Virus record (IMG/VR): IMGVR_UViG_3300017757_000068
Location: 1 to 31,147 of that record
DNA length: 31,147 bases
Reading direction: 5' to 3' (one strand)
Origin: a virus
This document shows positions 3,005-30,960 of the stretch, one piece after another. The position numbers and the translations under genes were made by a program. The first letter of the stretch is position 1; every line of letters starts with the position of its first letter. Below the pieces are notes generated by a model that saw only the letters and a list, made by a program, of their open reading frames with translations, did not search any database and was not told the DNA's origin.

Positions 3005-4596
3005 CACACCAACCATGCACTAAATGCGGAAGCAGTAATGCACTCTCGTACAACGACGACGGGAGTGCTTATTGTTTCAAATGTCAAACACACTTCCCTG
3101 CCAATAGCACGGGACAACAACCACAACCCTCACCACGTATGCAATCCAATGATAAATTTATCACAGGCACTCTCTCACCTCTCACAGCGCGCGGTATCAC
3201 TGAAGATACGTGTAAAAGATATGATTATCGTATCGGTTCTATCAACGGTATGCCTTGCCACATTGCCAATTATAAAGATGATTCAGGCAGAGTCATGGCT
3301 CAAAAATATCGCTTCGAAGACAAGCGGTTCACATGCCAAGGTTCACCTTCGACTTTTTTTGGTCAGCATCTGTTTCCTAATGGCGGTCATCATCTCTGCA
3401 TCACTGAAGGTGAGATCGACTGTCTTACAGTTAGTCAACTACAAGGAAATAAGTGGGCAGTCGTAAGTCTTCCTAACGGATGCGCTTCAGCTAAGAAGAT
3501 GTTCAAAGACCACATGAAGTGGTTAGACTCCTTTGGTCACATCGTCCTATGCTTCGACAACGATGAAGCAGGTAACGAAGCTATAGAGGCTGTTAGTCAC
3601 CTCCTACCTCTAGGCAAGACAAGAGTAGCTAAGCTTCCTATGAAGGACGCAAACGAGATGCTACTTGCTGGAGAAGGTAAGGAAGTTGTTCGTGCTTGTT
3701 TCGATGCTAAACCTTGGCGTCCAGATGCTATCCTAGATGGCTCTGAGATGTTTGAACGTCTCACTACATTCGAGAACTACGAAACAGTACCTTACCCTTT
3801 TAAGGGCTTGAATAATCTTACCAAGGGTTTTCGCAAATCTGAGATCGCTACGTTCTGTGCTGGTTCTGGTATAGGCAAGAGTCTGGTCTGTAAACAAATC
3901 ATACACAGCTTCCTGACAACTACCGACAAGAAGGTTGGTATGATTGCGCTGGAAGAGTCAGTAGAGCGTACTGCTAATTCCATTATCGGTATTGATATGC
4001 AGAAGCCTATCCACCTTGAGCCCTTCACACCTGATGATGATTATACCGAGTCCTATAACCGTACTGTAGGATCAGGTAACTTTTTCCTCTACGACCATTG
4101 GGGCTCACTCGATGCTGACCACCTACTAGGTCACATGCGTTATATGATTAAAGCGCTCGAAGTTGATTACATCTGTCTCGATCACTTGAGCATCGTTGTA
4201 AGTGACCAAGACGGTGGAGATGAACGCAAGACCATCGACCGCTTGATGACTAAGCTACGTGCTCTCGTACAAGAGACAAACATCGGTCTGCTTCTTGTCT
4301 CTCACCTCAAGCGTCCAGAAGGACGTGGACACGAGGAAGGCACAACAACAAGTCTTTCGCACCTACGGGGCTCAGCGAGTATTGCACAGCTCAGTGACAC
4401 CGTCATTGGACTAGAGCGTAACCAACAAGCTGCGGAGAACAGAAACCAAACTCAGATGCGTGTTCTCAAGAACCGCTTTTGTGGTCTCACTGGTCTAGCT
4501 TCTACTATCATATATGACCCCGACACAGGGATACTCACAGAAGCACAGGTTAACAACTTCGAAGAGGAAGGAGGCAGCACTAATGCACCCTTCTAA
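2989..4596 (+). CDS. gp4 (T7-like): DNA primase-helicase
   Basis: 535-aa bifunctional protein against 566 aa in T7. N-terminal zinc-binding domain: CTKC (residues 10-13) and CFKC (29-32). The TOPRIM primase has TEGEID and FDNDEAGN. The RecA-like hexameric helicase has Walker A GSGIGKS (292-298), EESVE, LDHLSIVVS and a HLKRPEGRGHEEG segment. The C-terminus ends in Phe after an acidic stretch, as in T7, where it docks on the polymerase. A GTG at 2962 would add nine residues; ATG 2989 is preferred because it puts the zinc motif at the normal distance from the N-terminus, and it overlaps the end of endonuclease I by 16 bp. A Met at residue 51, just after the zinc domain, could give a helicase-only short form like T7 4B, but no ribosome site supports it. 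Confidence 0.97.
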   Translation: MAFTVTHQPCTKCGSSNALSYNDDGSAYCFKCQTHFPANSTGQQPQPSPRMQSNDKFITGTLSPLTARGITEDTCKRYDYRIGSINGMPCHIANYKDDSGRVMAQKYRFEDKRFTCQGSPSTFFGQHLFPNGGHHLCITEGEIDCLTVSQLQGNKWAVVSLPNGCASAKKMFKDHMKWLDSFGHIVLCFDNDEAGNEAIEAVSHLLPLGKTRVAKLPMKDANEMLLAGEGKEVVRACFDAKPWRPDAILDGSEMFERLTTFENYETVPYPFKGLNNLTKGFRKSEIATFCAGSGIGKSLVCKQIIHSFLTTTDKKVGMIALEESVERTANSIIGIDMQKPIHLEPFTPDDDYTESYNRTVGSGNFFLYDHWGSLDADHLLGHMRYMIKALEVDYICLDHLSIVVSDQDGGDERKTIDRLMTKLRALVQETNIGLLLVSHLKRPEGRGHEEGTTTSLSHLRGSASIAQLSDTVIGLERNQQAAENRNQTQMRVLKNRFCGLTGLASTIIYDPDTGILTEAQVNNFEEEGGSTNAPF

Positions 4597-8220: not shown

Positions 8221-9774
8221 ATGCCTTCTTCAAGAACTATTCCAAGGATTTCACCCCTTAGTGCTATGACGACACGCATAAAGGTCGATGTTGAAGGACA
8301 TGCTGACATTAGTGGCGTATACACTGGAGCAGGGGGCGGGATTCCTTGGCTTCAAGAAGGAGGTAATGGGAAAATTGCCACGTCTGGGTACAATAGTGAA
8401 GCAGATAACCAAACATGGTTTGTTTATGATAACTCCGACTTAGACCCAAATGGTGAGCAAAACTCCTTGTTCAGCTGGAGCTCCACTTCTGGTGAGAGCC
8501 CCTTCCCTTGGAGCGACCTTGCAAGTAATCATGGAAAAGTAAAGATTACTGCTGATATAGACGTAGTAGTATGTCCCAGCCGTGATCGGGAAGCAGGTGT
8601 AACGGATATACCTAGATTTGGTGTCCCTCTTACTGATACCAGCACCGAAATCAAAGTAACCGTTGCAGGACACGCTGACATTAGTGGTATATATACAGGA
8701 ACTACCGTAGCAGGAGCCACTTGGAATCAACAAGGAGGTAATGGGACGATTGCCGCTTATTCTTTTAACGAGACAGATGGCTATGAATATATACTTGAAG
8801 ACGGAAGTGACCTCGACCCACAGTATCTCCTTAATAACGCTTCTGGTTTCACCGACAGACCTTGGAAGGCTGTTCTCCCAAGCGGTGTAACAATGGACGG
8901 GAAAGATAGCGTCACAGTAAAACGCACAGCCCTTGTACATAAATCAGACCGTAAAGGGGAATCTCGTCCACTACTAAGTAAAGTAGTTGGTGGGGCAGCA
9001 GCAGCTTACAGCCTACGTGACCTCAACGACAAAGCAGGTAACAACAAGGTAGTTGAAGTAAGACGTTCTAGTGACGATGCGGATAGGATTTTCTTAGCCA
9101 AAGAGGTAGCTAATGGAACGCTAGAGGCTTGGGTTGGAGCAGGTAATAACGGCTTCGTATCCAAATGGTATGACCAGTCAGGTAACGGAAATGATGCAGA
9201 ACAAGCAACTGCTGGAAGCCAACCTAAGATTGTTAACAGCGGAGCTTTAGTTGTTGATAACGGAATTGCTGGACTTGATTTTGATGGCGGTGACTTTTTA
9301 GTTGCCTCTTCGGTATCAGGGCTAGAAAGTCCTTTTTCAATATTCTCTACGAGTGTTAGGGATTCAAATGGATATACTGCTTCGCTTTCAAGGAGTTCAG
9401 CCGCCAACAGATATTTTGCCGTTTTTGAGTCATCGGGAACATCTATTGCTGTTCCAAGAAATTCTACTTCAGGTGTTACGGTAGCGGCTAGTGTTTCTGG
9501 GGCTGACCGCCTTACCTTTGCCTTAACTACTGGGGCTACTTCAACTAGTGTAGGTGCTAAAGGAGGAACTGTTGTTACTACAACTGACGACTACGGAAAT
9601 GATTTTACTTCTAGTTCAAGCTTAGACCAAATTGCTATTGGTGTTCAGAGGACTGTAAGCCCAACTGGTTATTTTAACGGGCGTATCCGTGAGATTATTT
9701 TCTACACCTCTGACCAGTCAGCCAACCGTCCAGCCATCGAAGCTAACATTAACAATCAATACGACATCTACTAA
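8221..9774 (+). CDS. LamG/ConA-like structural protein with duplicated N-terminal domain
   Basis: 517 aa, no T7 counterpart. Residues about 19-123 and 143-243 are two copies of one beta-rich domain: each opens with IKV.V.GHADISG.YTG and has GGNG, a SDLDP turn and a KV.I/SVTVK strand near its end. From about residue 260 there is a concanavalin/LamG-type domain, beginning AAAYSLRDLN, with WYDQSGNGNDAEQ, a motif common in phage adhesins and arabinofuranosidase-like folds, and closing with FNGRIREIIFY. No catalytic residues can be assigned. Placed five bases after the gp7.3-like gene and before portal. Probably a virion-exposed carbohydrate-binding or decoration protein; alternatively a tail appendage. 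Function is inferred from fold only. Confidence 0.8.
   Translation: MPSSRTIPRISPLSAMTTRIKVDVEGHADISGVYTGAGGGIPWLQEGGNGKIATSGYNSEADNQTWFVYDNSDLDPNGEQNSLFSWSSTSGESPFPWSDLASNHGKVKITADIDVVVCPSRDREAGVTDIPRFGVPLTDTSTEIKVTVAGHADISGIYTGTTVAGATWNQQGGNGTIAAYSFNETDGYEYILEDGSDLDPQYLLNNASGFTDRPWKAVLPSGVTMDGKDSVTVKRTALVHKSDRKGESRPLLSKVVGGAAAAYSLRDLNDKAGNNKVVEVRRSSDDADRIFLAKEVANGTLEAWVGAGNNGFVSKWYDQSGNGNDAEQATAGSQPKIVNSGALVVDNGIAGLDFDGGDFLVASSVSGLESPFSIFSTSVRDSNGYTASLSRSSAANRYFAVFESSGTSIAVPRNSTSGVTVAASVSGADRLTFALTTGATSTSVGAKGGTVVTTTDDYGNDFTSSSSLDQIAIGVQRTVSPTGYFNGRIREIIFYTSDQSANRPAIEANINNQYDIY
8275..8950 (+). repeat. intragenic domain duplication
   Basis: Two divergent copies of a roughly 105-aa coding unit, about 124 codons apart. 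The seven residues GHADISG are identical at residues 26-32 and 150-156, and both copies carry GGNG and SDLDP. The copies differ at many positions elsewhere, so the duplication is not recent. Confidence 0.75.
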
Positions 9775-27055: not shown

Positions 27056-27197
27056 TTGGTTAGCTAGTCTTACTCCACTAGCAATCGCCCTTATTACTCT
27101 CGTGGTTGTGTTGTCAAAAATGCACTACAGCATCGAGAGCATAGGCGAAAAAGTAAAAATCCTTTTTGATTTTCATAACAAAAGAAACGATAAATGA
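27045..27197 (+). CDS. small membrane protein, possible holin partner or spanin-like
   Basis: 50 aa. N-terminal membrane helix at about 6-24 (LASLTPLAIALITLVVVLS), then a soluble amphipathic charged tail (HYSIESIGEKVKILFDFHNK). It overlaps the preceding gene by 11 bp, the next by 4 bp (ATGA), and has AAGGAG about 10 bases upstream, a better ribosome site than most here. N-in/C-out single-helix topology would fit an inner-membrane spanin or an accessory holin; no proof either way. Confidence 0.7.
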   Translation: MTIDWLASLTPLAIALITLVVVLSKMHYSIESIGEKVKILFDFHNKRNDK

Positions 27198-27421
27198 CTG
27201 AAAAATCCCAAAAACTTGACCTATTACAGGATATTCTTATTGACGAGTTCATAGAACGCATCAAATCTGGCGAAGCAACCCCAAGTGATTTGAACGCTGC
27301 TAGACAGATGCTTAAGGATAATGGAGTCCAATGTCAGGTCTCCGATGCTAATCCAGCGTCTGATTTGATGTCTCTCCTTCCTTTTGAAGACACCGTAACC
27401 TCTAACGCAGCACAAATATGA
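27194..27421 (+). CDS. gp18 (T7-like): small terminase subunit
   Basis: 75 aa (T7 gp18: 89). Helical, acidic; contains LDLLQDILIDEFIERIKSGE and SDLNAARQMLKDNGVQ, the usual pattern for small terminase subunits of T7-like marine phages. It recognises concatemer DNA and regulates the large subunit. It overlaps the genes on both sides by 4 bp and lies one gene upstream of terL. The identification rests on this helix pattern and position. Confidence 0.85.
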   Translation: MTEKSQKLDLLQDILIDEFIERIKSGEATPSDLNAARQMLKDNGVQCQVSDANPASDLMSLLPFEDTVTSNAAQI

Positions 27422-27642
27422 GCCGAAACTACCGACAAGAGTATCAAAGATACCACGCGAAGCCTGAGCAACGGCAGCGACGCTCAAGCCGAAATAAAGC
27501 TAGAAGGAAAGCTCTGAGCCTTTACGGTTCAGCAGCGATTGCTGGAAAGGATGTTGATCACCGCGATAGGAATGCGATGAACAACTCTAGACACAATCTT
27601 CGTATTCAGTCTCGAAAGGCAAATCGGGGCAGAAATAAGTAG
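27418..27642 (+). CDS. HNH-like mini-protein beside terminase
   Basis: 74 aa, very basic. The N-terminal half is Arg/Gln-rich (RQEYQRYHAKPEQRQRRSSR). Residues about 44-65 have GKDVDHRDRNAMNNSRHNLR, which resembles the core of an HNH nuclease (D-H...N..NN...NL), but there are no zinc-binding Cys residues and little room for the final helix. HNH proteins beside terminases can help large-terminase cleavage in other phages. T7 has 18.5 (Rz) here, so the position has been replaced. Nuclease activity is not shown. Confidence 0.7.
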   Translation: MSRNYRQEYQRYHAKPEQRQRRSSRNKARRKALSLYGSAAIAGKDVDHRDRNAMNNSRHNLRIQSRKANRGRNK

Positions 27643-27661: not shown

Positions 27662-29344
27662 GTGAATGACTCTCAAAAGCTTAAAGACTTTAGAAATTTC
27701 CTGTTTCTCGTCTGGAAACATTTAAACCTCCCTGATCCAACACCAATACAATATGACATCTCAGAATACATGCAGTACGGACCAAAAAGAGCAGTTGTTG
27801 AGGGCTTTCGAGGCGTCGGAAAATCTTGGATTTGCTCTGCATTCGTTGTTCACCAACTCTACCTCGATCCAACAAAAAATATCCTTGTTGTCAGTGCTTC
27901 GAAGACACGAGCGGACGATTTCTCTACTTTCACACTACGTCTCATCCATGAAATTCCCTTCCTCGAACACCTCAAACCCCACCACGACAAGCAGCGATTC
28001 TCCAAAATCTCTTTCGATGTCGGACCTGCTCCAGCCTCCCACGCCCCCTCCGTCAAATCGTTGGGGATCACATCTCAATTAACGGGTTCTCGTGCTGATT
28101 TAATCGTTGGGGATGACGTTGAAGTCCCTACGAACTCCGCTACGCAGACCATGCGTGAGAAGCTCTCAGAGCAGATAAAAGAGTTCGACAGTATTTTAAA
28201 ACCTCTTGATGACTCTAAGGTCATCTTCCTTGGCACTCCACAGTGTGAAGATACGGTATACGCTAAGCTCACTGAGAGGGGCTACAAGCCTCGTATATGG
28301 ACGGGGAGGTATGTTACCCCTAAAAGTAACGAGCAACGCTATGACGGGGCTGTGAGCCCTATCTGTGTCGATCTGGATAAGGCGGGTAAGTCTACAGAAT
28401 CCACGCGCTTCAGTGACATTGATTTAGACGAACGAGAAGTGTCCTACGGGCGCTCTGGTTTCACCATGCAATTCATGCTTGATCCTCGTCTCTCTGACAT
28501 GGACAGGTTTCCTCTCAAGGTTAACGAGCTTGTTGTCATGGATTGTGACGATAATACCGCCCCTGAGAAGATTGTATGGGCTCAAGACCCTCAACTGGAG
28601 TGGGACTCCTCCCTACCTAACGTAGGATTTAGCGGAGATCGATTTCATAGACCTTTTAAAACCATCGGAGATAACATCCCATACACAGGCTCTGTTATGT
28701 CCATTGACCCTTCTGGACGAGGTAAAGATGAAACCTCTTGGGCTATCGTTAAGATGCTCAACGGCTTCCTTTACGTTGTAGACGCTGGAGGTATGCAAGG
28801 AGGGTACGGAGAGGACGTCCTGAAGTCTCTGGCTGTTCGAGCAGCTAAACACAAGGTCAACTACATCGTGGTTGAATCTAACTTCGGAGACGGAATGTTC
28901 TCAGAGCTCTTTAAGCCCATCCTACAACGCATACACCCTACAACAGTCGAAGAAGTTCGTCACCACGTCCAAAAAGAGAAGCGTATCGTCGATACTCTTG
29001 AACCGATCATGAACCAACATCGGCTCATCTTTGACCCCAGCGTGATTAGAGATGACTATAAAAGTGCTCAGGGCTACCCCAGTGAGTCCGTCCTCAAGTA
29101 TCAACTCATCTACCAGATGAGCCGTATCACCAGAGAACGAGGTGCAATCACTCACGATGACCGTTTAGATGCCCTCTCAATGGCTGTTAACTATTGGGTT
29201 GAACAGATGGCTCAAGATGCTGACAGAGCAATGGTAGATAGAAAAGAGGGAATGATAACAGAAGAACTCAACAAGTTCATGGATAGCTATTACAAGACCA
29301 ACGGTGCTAACGGTCCATCTCCAATGGTCTGGAATGAAGTTTAA
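27662..29344 (+). CDS. gp19 (T7-like): large terminase subunit
   Basis: 560 aa (T7: 586). Packaging ATPase and nuclease. Walker A GFRGVGKS (48-55), ILVVSASKTRADDF, GITSQLTGSRADLIVGDDVE (Walker B), KVIFLGTPQ (motif III/coupling), and RNase H-type nuclease with SIDPSGRGKDETSWA, VVESNFGDGMFSE and ITHDDRLDALSMA holding the catalytic acids. The start is GTG 27662, since no ATG lies near the beginning and MNDSQKLKDFRNFLFLVWK matches the T7 N-terminal helix. No Shine-Dalgarno site is evident. The gene is followed by a hairpin-rich noncoding stretch. Confidence 0.97.
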   Translation: MNDSQKLKDFRNFLFLVWKHLNLPDPTPIQYDISEYMQYGPKRAVVEGFRGVGKSWICSAFVVHQLYLDPTKNILVVSASKTRADDFSTFTLRLIHEIPFLEHLKPHHDKQRFSKISFDVGPAPASHAPSVKSLGITSQLTGSRADLIVGDDVEVPTNSATQTMREKLSEQIKEFDSILKPLDDSKVIFLGTPQCEDTVYAKLTERGYKPRIWTGRYVTPKSNEQRYDGAVSPICVDLDKAGKSTESTRFSDIDLDEREVSYGRSGFTMQFMLDPRLSDMDRFPLKVNELVVMDCDDNTAPEKIVWAQDPQLEWDSSLPNVGFSGDRFHRPFKTIGDNIPYTGSVMSIDPSGRGKDETSWAIVKMLNGFLYVVDAGGMQGGYGEDVLKSLAVRAAKHKVNYIVVESNFGDGMFSELFKPILQRIHPTTVEEVRHHVQKEKRIVDTLEPIMNQHRLIFDPSVIRDDYKSAQGYPSESVLKYQLIYQMSRITRERGAITHDDRLDALSMAVNYWVEQMAQDADRAMVDRKEGMITEELNKFMDSYYKTNGANGPSPMVWNEV

Positions 29345-29387
29345 CGGGTGCGTCCGTGCTGCGTAGCAGCCAGCACAACGGGTTAAT

Positions 29388-29425
29388 AACTGATCATACT
29401 TAGATAAGCTTATCTGGTATCAGTT
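29388..29425. repeat. long imperfect inverted repeat with 14-bp palindrome core
   Basis: AACTGAT at 29388-29394 pairs with ATCAGTT at 29419-29425; inside them is the perfect palindrome AGATAAGCTTATCT at 29402-29415. The symmetry works on both strands, so it could be a DNA-binding site as well as an RNA hairpin. Confidence 0.85.
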
Positions 29426-29444
29426 CTTAGCTTTATTTAAGCTT

Positions 29445-29516
29445 AGAGTTAATATGGTGGTTTATAAGGTAATAAAGAACCATACTCTTAAAGCCAGAAG
29501 ATAGTCTTCTTAGAGT
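29445..29516 (+). repeat. mutually exclusive hairpins sharing ACTCT
   Basis: AGAGT (29445-29449) and ATGGT (29454-29458) can pair with ACTCT (29484-29488) and ACCAT (29479-29483), with TTTAT/ATAAA inside. The same ACTCT can instead pair with AGAGT at 29512-29516, closing the AGAAGA-tag-TCTTCT stem. The two folds compete for one segment. Confidence 0.65.
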
Positions 29517-29591
29517 TATATAGCTTTCTCGCTAAGAACTTATAAGTTATTTTAAAGGGGCTCAAACCCCTGTCAAGCCCAATATTCAAAT

Positions 29592-29828
29592 ATGTCGTTA
29601 GAAAAGATCGAAGATGCCTTAGCAATTATCGGAGAACATTGTGAGCACTATACGTTAATTGCGGTTCTTCCAGAGTATCCTGCGGAAGTTCAGCTTAGGT
29701 ATAGTTCCCCGTTCATCGTAGAGGGACTTACAACGGAAGCTCAAAGGCTTTTAGAGCAAGAGTATAGCTTTGATACCGAGATTGAATACGTCTGGGAAGA
29801 CGACGAGGACGAAGAAGAAGAACTTTAG
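29592..29828 (+). CDS. hypothetical acidic protein, isolated cistron
   Basis: 78 aa, unrecognised. Begins MSLEKIEDALAIIGEHCEHY, has a short beta-like core (TLIAVLPEYPAEVQLRYSS) and a very acidic end (WEDDEDEEEEL). No membrane segment. Unlike the other genes it is isolated: the hairpin-rich region lies upstream and an inverted repeat plus strong terminator lie downstream. Strong acidity could suit a DNA-mimic or host-interacting accessory protein, but this is speculation. Confidence 0.65.
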   Translation: MSLEKIEDALAIIGEHCEHYTLIAVLPEYPAEVQLRYSSPFIVEGLTTEAQRLLEQEYSFDTEIEYVWEDDEDEEEEL

Positions 29829-29942: not shown

Positions 29943-29984
29943 GGGGTTACTTCTAAGTGGTTTAGGAGTAGCCCTCTTTTTTTT
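29943..29984 (+). terminator. strong rho-independent terminator upstream of tail fibre
   Basis: Stem GGG/CCC plus TACTTCTAA/TTAGGAGTA (one T-G wobble), loop GTGGT, then CTTTTTTTT with eight T. It ends 30 bases before the tail-fibre ATG and falls inside the open frame that extends upstream of that gene, which argues against the upstream GTG (29934) being the real start. Confidence 0.92.
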
Positions 29985-30014
29985 AATAATAAACAAATAA
30001 ACCCCCTTATATTC

Positions 30015-30923
30015 ATGGCTGTTAGCTACCAACAATATACTTATCCTACCCCAACAATCTTTACGATAGGCTTTAACTACCTATCGATTGATGATGTGAA
30101 AGCGCAGGTCTACGACGGTTCAGCTTGGGTAGGGTGGTCAGTGCTTAGTCGTAACGCCTATAACAAAACGGTTACAATTGCCGATGCAAGTAGTTATCAA
30201 GCTCTTCGTCTTTACAGAAGCACATCGACAACAAATTTAGTAGACTTCCAAAGTGGTTCTAGGTTGTCTGAACACGACCTAGATACAGCTTATCAACAAT
30301 GTCTCTTTGCAACTCAAGAGGTTGTAGAGAATGCTTCTAATCAGGTAGTAGCTTCAGGCGCACAAGGAAACGTTGGACTCACTGGAGCTGATGGACCAAC
30401 AGGACCAACAGGACCAGCAGGAGCTGACAGTACAATTGCTGGACCAACAGGAGCAACAGGACCAACTGGAGCAACAGGACCCGCAGGACCAGTAGGAACA
30501 ACGGGAGCAGTAGGACCAGCAGGACCAGCAGGAGCAGCAGGAGCTGATGGAGTTGATGGAGTTGATGGAGTTGATGGAGTTGATGGAGCTGGGACTGGAG
30601 TCTTAAGTTCTGAATTTGAAAGCTCTGAAATTACTATACCAAGCTCAAGTGGGTTTGTAACAGCTGCACATGGATTGGGTTCTATTCCAAAATCATACTC
30701 GGCTTGCTTGCGATGCAAAACGGTAGAATATGGTTATTCTGTAGGAGATGAAATTAATTTATCAATACGTAATTCTTACGCAACATCGACCCATGTCAGT
30801 TTTCATACGGAGAACTATAGTGGCAGCACTCCCGCCTTTAGCATTTACGAGAAAGATACGGAAGTATCAGGCTCCAACATAACAAATTCTTACTGGAAAA
30901 TAGTCTTCCGAGCCTTTGTATAA
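30015..30923 (+). CDS. gp17 (T7-like N-terminus): tail fibre with T7-type attachment domain and collagen-like shaft
   Basis: 302 aa, short beside T7 gp17 (553). Residues 1-110 match the T7 tail-fibre attachment domain: [40 protein letters not shown] and [18 protein letters not shown]. Residues 115-193 hold about 25 Gly-X-Y triplets, interrupted once by STIA, forming a collagen-like shaft. Residues 194-302 form a compact beta-type tip ([29 protein letters not shown]) for receptor contact. ATG 30015 is supported by the motif position after MAVSYQQ. The gene lies after terL and a terminator rather than between gp16 and terS as in T7. Another tip or spike protein might be bound by it. Confidence 0.92.
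30357..30593 (+). repeat. collagen-like Gly-X-Y array
   Basis: Eight triplets, the four-residue break STIA, then seventeen triplets ([30 protein letters not shown]). Within it, 30546-30587 is a near-perfect 9-bp tandem repeat (unit GATGGAGTT), giving GVD four times, which is prone to slippage. Confidence 0.95.
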
Positions 30924-30928
30924 ACTTT

Positions 30929-30960
30929 AACCCTTCCTGTGGATAATGGGGGTTGGTTTT
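30929..30960 (+). terminator. terminator-like hairpin after tail fibre
   Basis: AACCC (30929-30933) and CC (30936-30937) pair with GG (30048 region read as 30948-30949) and GGGTT (30950-30954), leaving a TT bulge, followed by GGTTTT. The tract has only four T, so it is weaker than the other two terminators. Confidence 0.6.

Follow-up and report, generated by a model that had tools for sequence, protein, structure and literature searches.

The right end of the bacteriophage T7 genome (NC_001604) holds phiOR, gene 19.5, the right-end short repeats and the terminal repeat; phiOR lies approximately 100 bp 3' of terL, the gene for the large terminase subunit. The Pseudomonas phage LUZ100 has a comparable layout: a promoter region approximately 100 bp 3' of terL with a mapped phage promoter, phi8, then small genes, and then a terminal repeat of 244 bp (PMC10134795). 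The LUZ100 promoter is rightward and phage-specific, and the antisense RNA reported for that phage lies downstream of the capsid gene rather than at the terL-downstream site (PMC10134795).

The locus analysed here comes from an uncultured T7-like marine podovirus. The window, that is, the whole 31,147-base virus record, has no end repeats that could be found and is therefore probably a genome fragment. It encodes a single-subunit RNA polymerase (cut by the left edge), a primase/helicase, a DNA polymerase, and capsid and tail proteins; about 5% of it is noncoding. The nearest annotated relative of its TerL is that of the uncultured phage MedDCM-OCT-S45-C18 (70% identity), with Roseobacter phages next (60%). 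The terL stop codon (29344) adjoins a block, 29345-29591, that contains no listed open reading frame and is bounded on its other side by the ATG, at 29592, of a gene for a small acidic protein (Table 1); relatives have a similar small acidic gene, either directly 3' of terL or 3' of a spacer. T7 likewise has a noncoding segment directly 3' of terL, before a small gene and to the left of the terminal repeat, and at 258 nt it is about as long as the block (247 nt). The two differ in that the block has no proven phage promoter, in the sequences of their repeats, and in that the T7 region has no leftward σ70 match scoring at least 10/12, unlike the block.

Where is the end of the genome? In relatives, terminal repeats begin 0.4-1.5 kb 3' of terL: the record of HTVC019P ends in a 162-bp direct repeat that starts approximately 430 bp 3' of terL; the final 272 bp of contig G001, beginning approximately 0.5 kb 3' of terL, are 93% identical to the start of that contig; and two other contigs have end repeats of 165 bp (G004) and 186 bp (G002). 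Of 19 contigs that reach 15 kb and show their downstream end, 12 run out no more than 1.4 kb past terL. These repeats, together with the promoters that relatives have 3' of terL, assign the block to the T7 right-end intergenic position, between terL and a terminal repeat whose place is given by relatives, the window being a fragment that lacks the left arm. An origin or a packaging/concatemer site had been among the functions first proposed for the block. Position, and position only, speaks for it: the terminal repeats of relatives lie 3' of terL, and T7, LUZ100 and Roseobacter phage CRP-125 (the last through one copy of a phage-promoter motif that recurs in its genome) have promoters at the equivalent spot.

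Scanning IMG/VR with TerL yielded, once redundancy was removed, 142 terL-downstream regions, which fall into 23 sequence clusters; a single region, L002, has the same block. Scans for comparable loci by DNA pattern and by the small protein found none beyond L002, and blastn of the block gave chance-level matches to phage records and no match to plasmids.

Table 1. Right-end features of the window (positions counted from its first base).
Feature	Position	Strand	Remarks
Small terminase candidate	27194-27421		
terL, large terminase subunit, T7 gp19 family	27662-29344	+	PHROG 38, E=3e-114; Pfam Terminase-T7_RNaseH-like, E=5.5e-41
Dyad-rich noncoding block, putative right-end control region	29345-29591	none	fold z about -4 on both strands; 92.7% identity to L002
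GC-rich inverted repeat directly 3' of terL	29351-29380		29347-29376 (30 nt) identical in L002; only outermost pairs differ
Nested inverted repeat around 14-bp palindrome	29381-29432		inner stem 29397-29419 unchanged in L002
TWAGAGTW, three short-repeat copies	29443-29517		29443 (+), 29483 (-), 29510 (+)
TAATATGG, diverged match to GGACTAATATGG	29450-29457	+	3 mismatches of 12, weak
Inverted repeat	29454-29483		10 of 10 predicted pairs unchanged in L002
12-bp palindrome AACTTATAAGTT, operator-like	29537-29548		directly 3' of -10 box, at predicted start of leftward promoter
Predicted σ70-type promoter	29549-29577	-	CTTGACA (29577-29571), 16-nt spacer, TAAAAT (29554-29549)
Gene for small acidic protein, 78 aa	29592-29828	+	no Pfam or PHROG match
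Intrinsic terminator 3' of small gene	29943-29985	+	15-pair stem and T-run
84-bp noncoding segment	30953-31036		85% identical to L002, where it is directly 3' of the small gene; probably near genome end

Other parts of the window also deserve mention. To the right of the terminator, positions 30015-30923 (within a segment of approximately 29990-30940) encode a protein that combines collagen repeats with a T7 tail-fibre N-terminal domain; this segment looks like a late-gene cassette recently gained or lost, because it is absent from L002, whose flanking sequence runs on. Between the small terminase candidate and terL, 27418-27642 encodes an HNH-like protein of 74 aa (Pfam HNH_3, E=4e-5, just under the gathering score). 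The gene at 8221-9774, upstream of a portal-like gene and outside the usual tail module, contains a 35-nt DNA repeat; its 517-aa product has a virion-structural PHROG match.

Dyads, folding and conservation of the block

The block had been singled out in the first-pass annotation as noncoding and dense in hairpins, and so it is: AGATAAGCTTATCT (29402-29415) and AACTTATAAGTT are perfect palindromes of 14 and 12 bp, each unique in the window, and AGAGT occurs at 29445 and 29512, ACTCT at 29484. The suggested comparison of its folding with shuffled sequence also bears this out. Against dinucleotide shuffles (200 per case, none of them equally stable), the block is about 4 SD more stable on either strand, with z = -4.0 for plus-strand RNA, -3.8 for minus-strand RNA, and -4.2 with DNA parameters. 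Perfect inverted repeats with arms of at least 6 number four, versus 1.1 ± 1.1 in shuffles (P ~0.03), and just 0.6% of other 247-nt positions of the window have four or more. The feature is real, though not extreme: three coding areas (near 2650, 12300 and 16500) deviate more than the block from the GC-adjusted folding trend. (A side note: relative to GC content, no fold in the window is more stable than that of 2651-2897, with z = -4.15, which includes a 23-nt inverted repeat, 2669-2725, that is 83% complementary, and probably sits in a reading frame between ssb and primase.) DNA dyads should raise stability almost equally on the two strands, as seen in the block, so the fold excess is by itself no proof of RNA.

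The idea that such density reflects selection gains support from L002, to which the block is 92.7% identical outside gaps, versus 91.0% for terL and 81.5% for the 78-aa gene. Noncoding DNA that is conserved at least as well as its coding flanks is evidently under constraint. The alignment has nearly unbroken identical runs of approximately 30, 48 and 50 nt, and its left two thirds are strongly conserved, which the promoter described next does not explain alone.

A predicted leftward promoter and the dyad at its start

The CTTGAC-type -35 element is the alphaproteobacterial σ70 consensus. On its minus strand the block carries CTTGACA-N16-TAAAAT, which scores 11/12 and is the sole match of at least 11/12 in the window. 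It resembles alphaproteobacterial σ70 promoters in its CTTGACA/G -35 and near-consensus -10 elements, and differs in its fixed 16-nt spacer, in the palindrome at its start site, and in having only terL, in antisense, as its downstream gene. This putative promoter had been overlooked when the hairpins were first catalogued: the 16 nt between its hexamers are the GGGGCTCAAACCCC hairpin, and its -10 box directly adjoins the 12-bp palindrome. (GGGGCTCAAACCCC was also considered as a terminator and discarded: it has no T-run, is broken in L002, and coincides with the promoter spacer.) L002 has the same two hexamers but differs at 6 of the 16 spacer bases. This is the sequence pattern of a σ70 promoter: a -35 and a -10 box set 16-18 nt apart and kept across diverging spacers.

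The wider family of terL-downstream regions points the same way. Within 600 nt of terL, CTTGAC[AG] is found on the minus strand of 42 of the 142 regions and on the plus strand of 18; in cluster 2 the corresponding counts are 24 of 25 and zero. In a stack of 22 sequences that diverge from one another, aligned on CTTGAC[AG] alone, TAnAnT, which is not anchored, peaks exactly 16 nt downstream across a spacer that is mostly unconserved; this is the strongest evidence that the element is a promoter. Minus-strand matches of at least 11/12 are confined to 4 of the 23 clusters, and shuffles give four or more clusters with P=0.003. (A technical note: the raw count of such promoter matches was 24 minus versus 2 plus, a figure inflated by one large lineage; for that reason matches were recounted by cluster.) In contig G001 the -35 box is approximately 71 bp to the left of the 272-bp terminal repeat. 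This leftward promoter is absent at the equivalent place from the isolates examined (CRP and HTVC phages, LUZ100, T7, P-SCSP2 and others), and two distant terL relatives in bacterial genomes also have no leftward match. The TTGACA could be part of another kind of DNA site. Leftward transcription at the right end does exist in relatives: Roseobacter phages CRP-118 and CRP-804 (L331, 4240-5463; L332, 4239-6596) have leftward thymidylate synthase and glutaredoxin genes directly 3' of terL.

A dyad at the predicted start site accompanies the promoter in all four clusters with matches of at least 11/12 (20 of 23 sequences), versus 4-10% of positions by chance. Its sequence is lineage-specific: AACTTATAAGTT in the window is replaced by ACACCTTAGGTGT, TCACCGCATGGTGA or TCCTATTAGGA in other lineages. 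Because transcription should begin inside it, this palindrome is probably to be taken for a DNA site rather than for an RNA hairpin. An operator shared with a second site was entertained and given up: neither the window nor five sister contigs contain a perfect second copy of the dyad. As judged from sequence, then, large divergence has left in place a leftward host-type promoter whose spacer is fixed at 16 nt and whose start site usually bears an inverted repeat. Among the features of the block it is this promoter, and not any RNA structure, that recurs most reproducibly.

Competing readings of the block

The chances seem to us about even that the block is a conserved control region at the right end of the genome of a marine T7-like phage, working mainly as DNA. 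Were its hairpins instead selected as RNA, either as a structured noncoding RNA or as a late-mRNA trailer processed by RNase III? This we regard as distinctly unlikely. The fold excess would suit such an RNA, as would the two stems, 29397-29419 and 29454-29483, that are unchanged in L002, and minus-strand z is low in four other regions also (L010, L011, L012 and L018). The predicted pairing, however, is not what L002 preserves: among 75 pairs there are no compensatory changes and 17 are broken or gapped (in the outer stem of the nested repeat, substitutions or an 11-nt gap remove 4 of 12 pairs), and differences are as dense in paired (22/150) as in unpaired (17/97) positions. Covariation, the check originally recommended, is seen in 1 of 46 pairs of a sister-lineage alignment of 14 sequences; with so few sequences, and so few close relatives, such comparisons have low power. 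The predicted leftward transcripts of 18 sequences fold close to average (median z -1.3), and no Rfam match in the window attains the gathering score. With no Rfam match, no compensatory change in L002 and no consistent transcript folding, structured RNA was abandoned as the leading reading; the RNA fold of the block is probably not the selected feature. The two competing AGAGT/ACTCT stems of the first-pass annotation go with it: that pairing is destroyed in L002, and its pieces are better seen as copies of a short repeat, TWAGAGTW (14 in the clade versus 3.1 ± 1.8 in shuffles, for a motif picked after looking).

An element of the phiOR type is also unlikely. It would consist of a rightward phage-polymerase promoter at TAATATGG, serving as a secondary origin and for transcription into the concatemer junction, with the leftward promoter secondary or accidental. 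The phage promoters of T7 and LUZ100, at about equal distances from terL, and the CRP-125 copy at the same spot make this attractive, and the most enriched noncoding word in terL-downstream regions of the clade, ACTAATATGG (6 of 23 clusters; shuffle maximum 3), is part of GGACTAATATGG, the top conserved word in sister lineages. But GGACTAATATGG occurs approximately once per genome, near terL in sister lineages, unlike known phage promoters, and the window has only its weaker, diverged TTAATATGG version. A search for repeated phage-promoter motifs in the window and sister contigs, by a method that does find one in CRP-125, came up empty, and the attempt to derive a phage-polymerase consensus for the window by this route was dropped. 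A phage-polymerase promoter or a right-end processing site is possible for TAATATGG. (The repeated motif of CRP-125 (L114) is AATTAGGTTGCACCATAG, at 3392, 5933, 7557, 16907, 21187 and 36551, one copy being just 3' of terL; it is likely to be the phage RNA-polymerase promoter consensus of that phage.) Very unlikely is an ordinary AT-rich intergenic spacer of no special function, its many dyads due to chance and recent common ancestry. The mild excess of perfect inverted repeats, the stronger folding, for GC content, of some coding areas, and the single known close relative would be compatible with such a spacer; an identity to L002 that equals or exceeds that of the coding flanks, in a genome with so little noncoding sequence, and a promoter architecture conserved in divergent relatives are not what it would leave behind.

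Implications of a putative right-end control region

If the block is a right-end control region, host RNA polymerase, while still active, would transcribe leftward into the 3' end of terL, yielding antisense RNA; the start-site dyad would be bound by a regulator; and the remaining dyads, together with the TWAGAGTW repeats, may be DNA sites used when the right end is replicated or concatemers are processed. Free divergence from L002 across the final 45 nt of terL speaks against a long antisense RNA under constraint within that gene. A broader proposition can be offered only tentatively, the odds being clearly against it: that marine T7-like phages of one clade retain, near the right end, a regulated host-polymerase promoter that fires backward. 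Its antisense RNA would couple terminase expression, or the processing of the right end, to host transcription shut-off, and the start dyad would serve as operator for a regulator encoded by phage or host.

Hairpin density in a short AT-rich spacer need not mean a folded RNA; as this case shows, DNA dyads and a promoter can produce it. By the usual description, gene expression in T7-like phages runs essentially in one direction. A leftward host promoter conserved beside the packaging gene would add a backward signal precisely where replication, concatemer cutting and packaging meet, and would do so in phages that are common in sea water.
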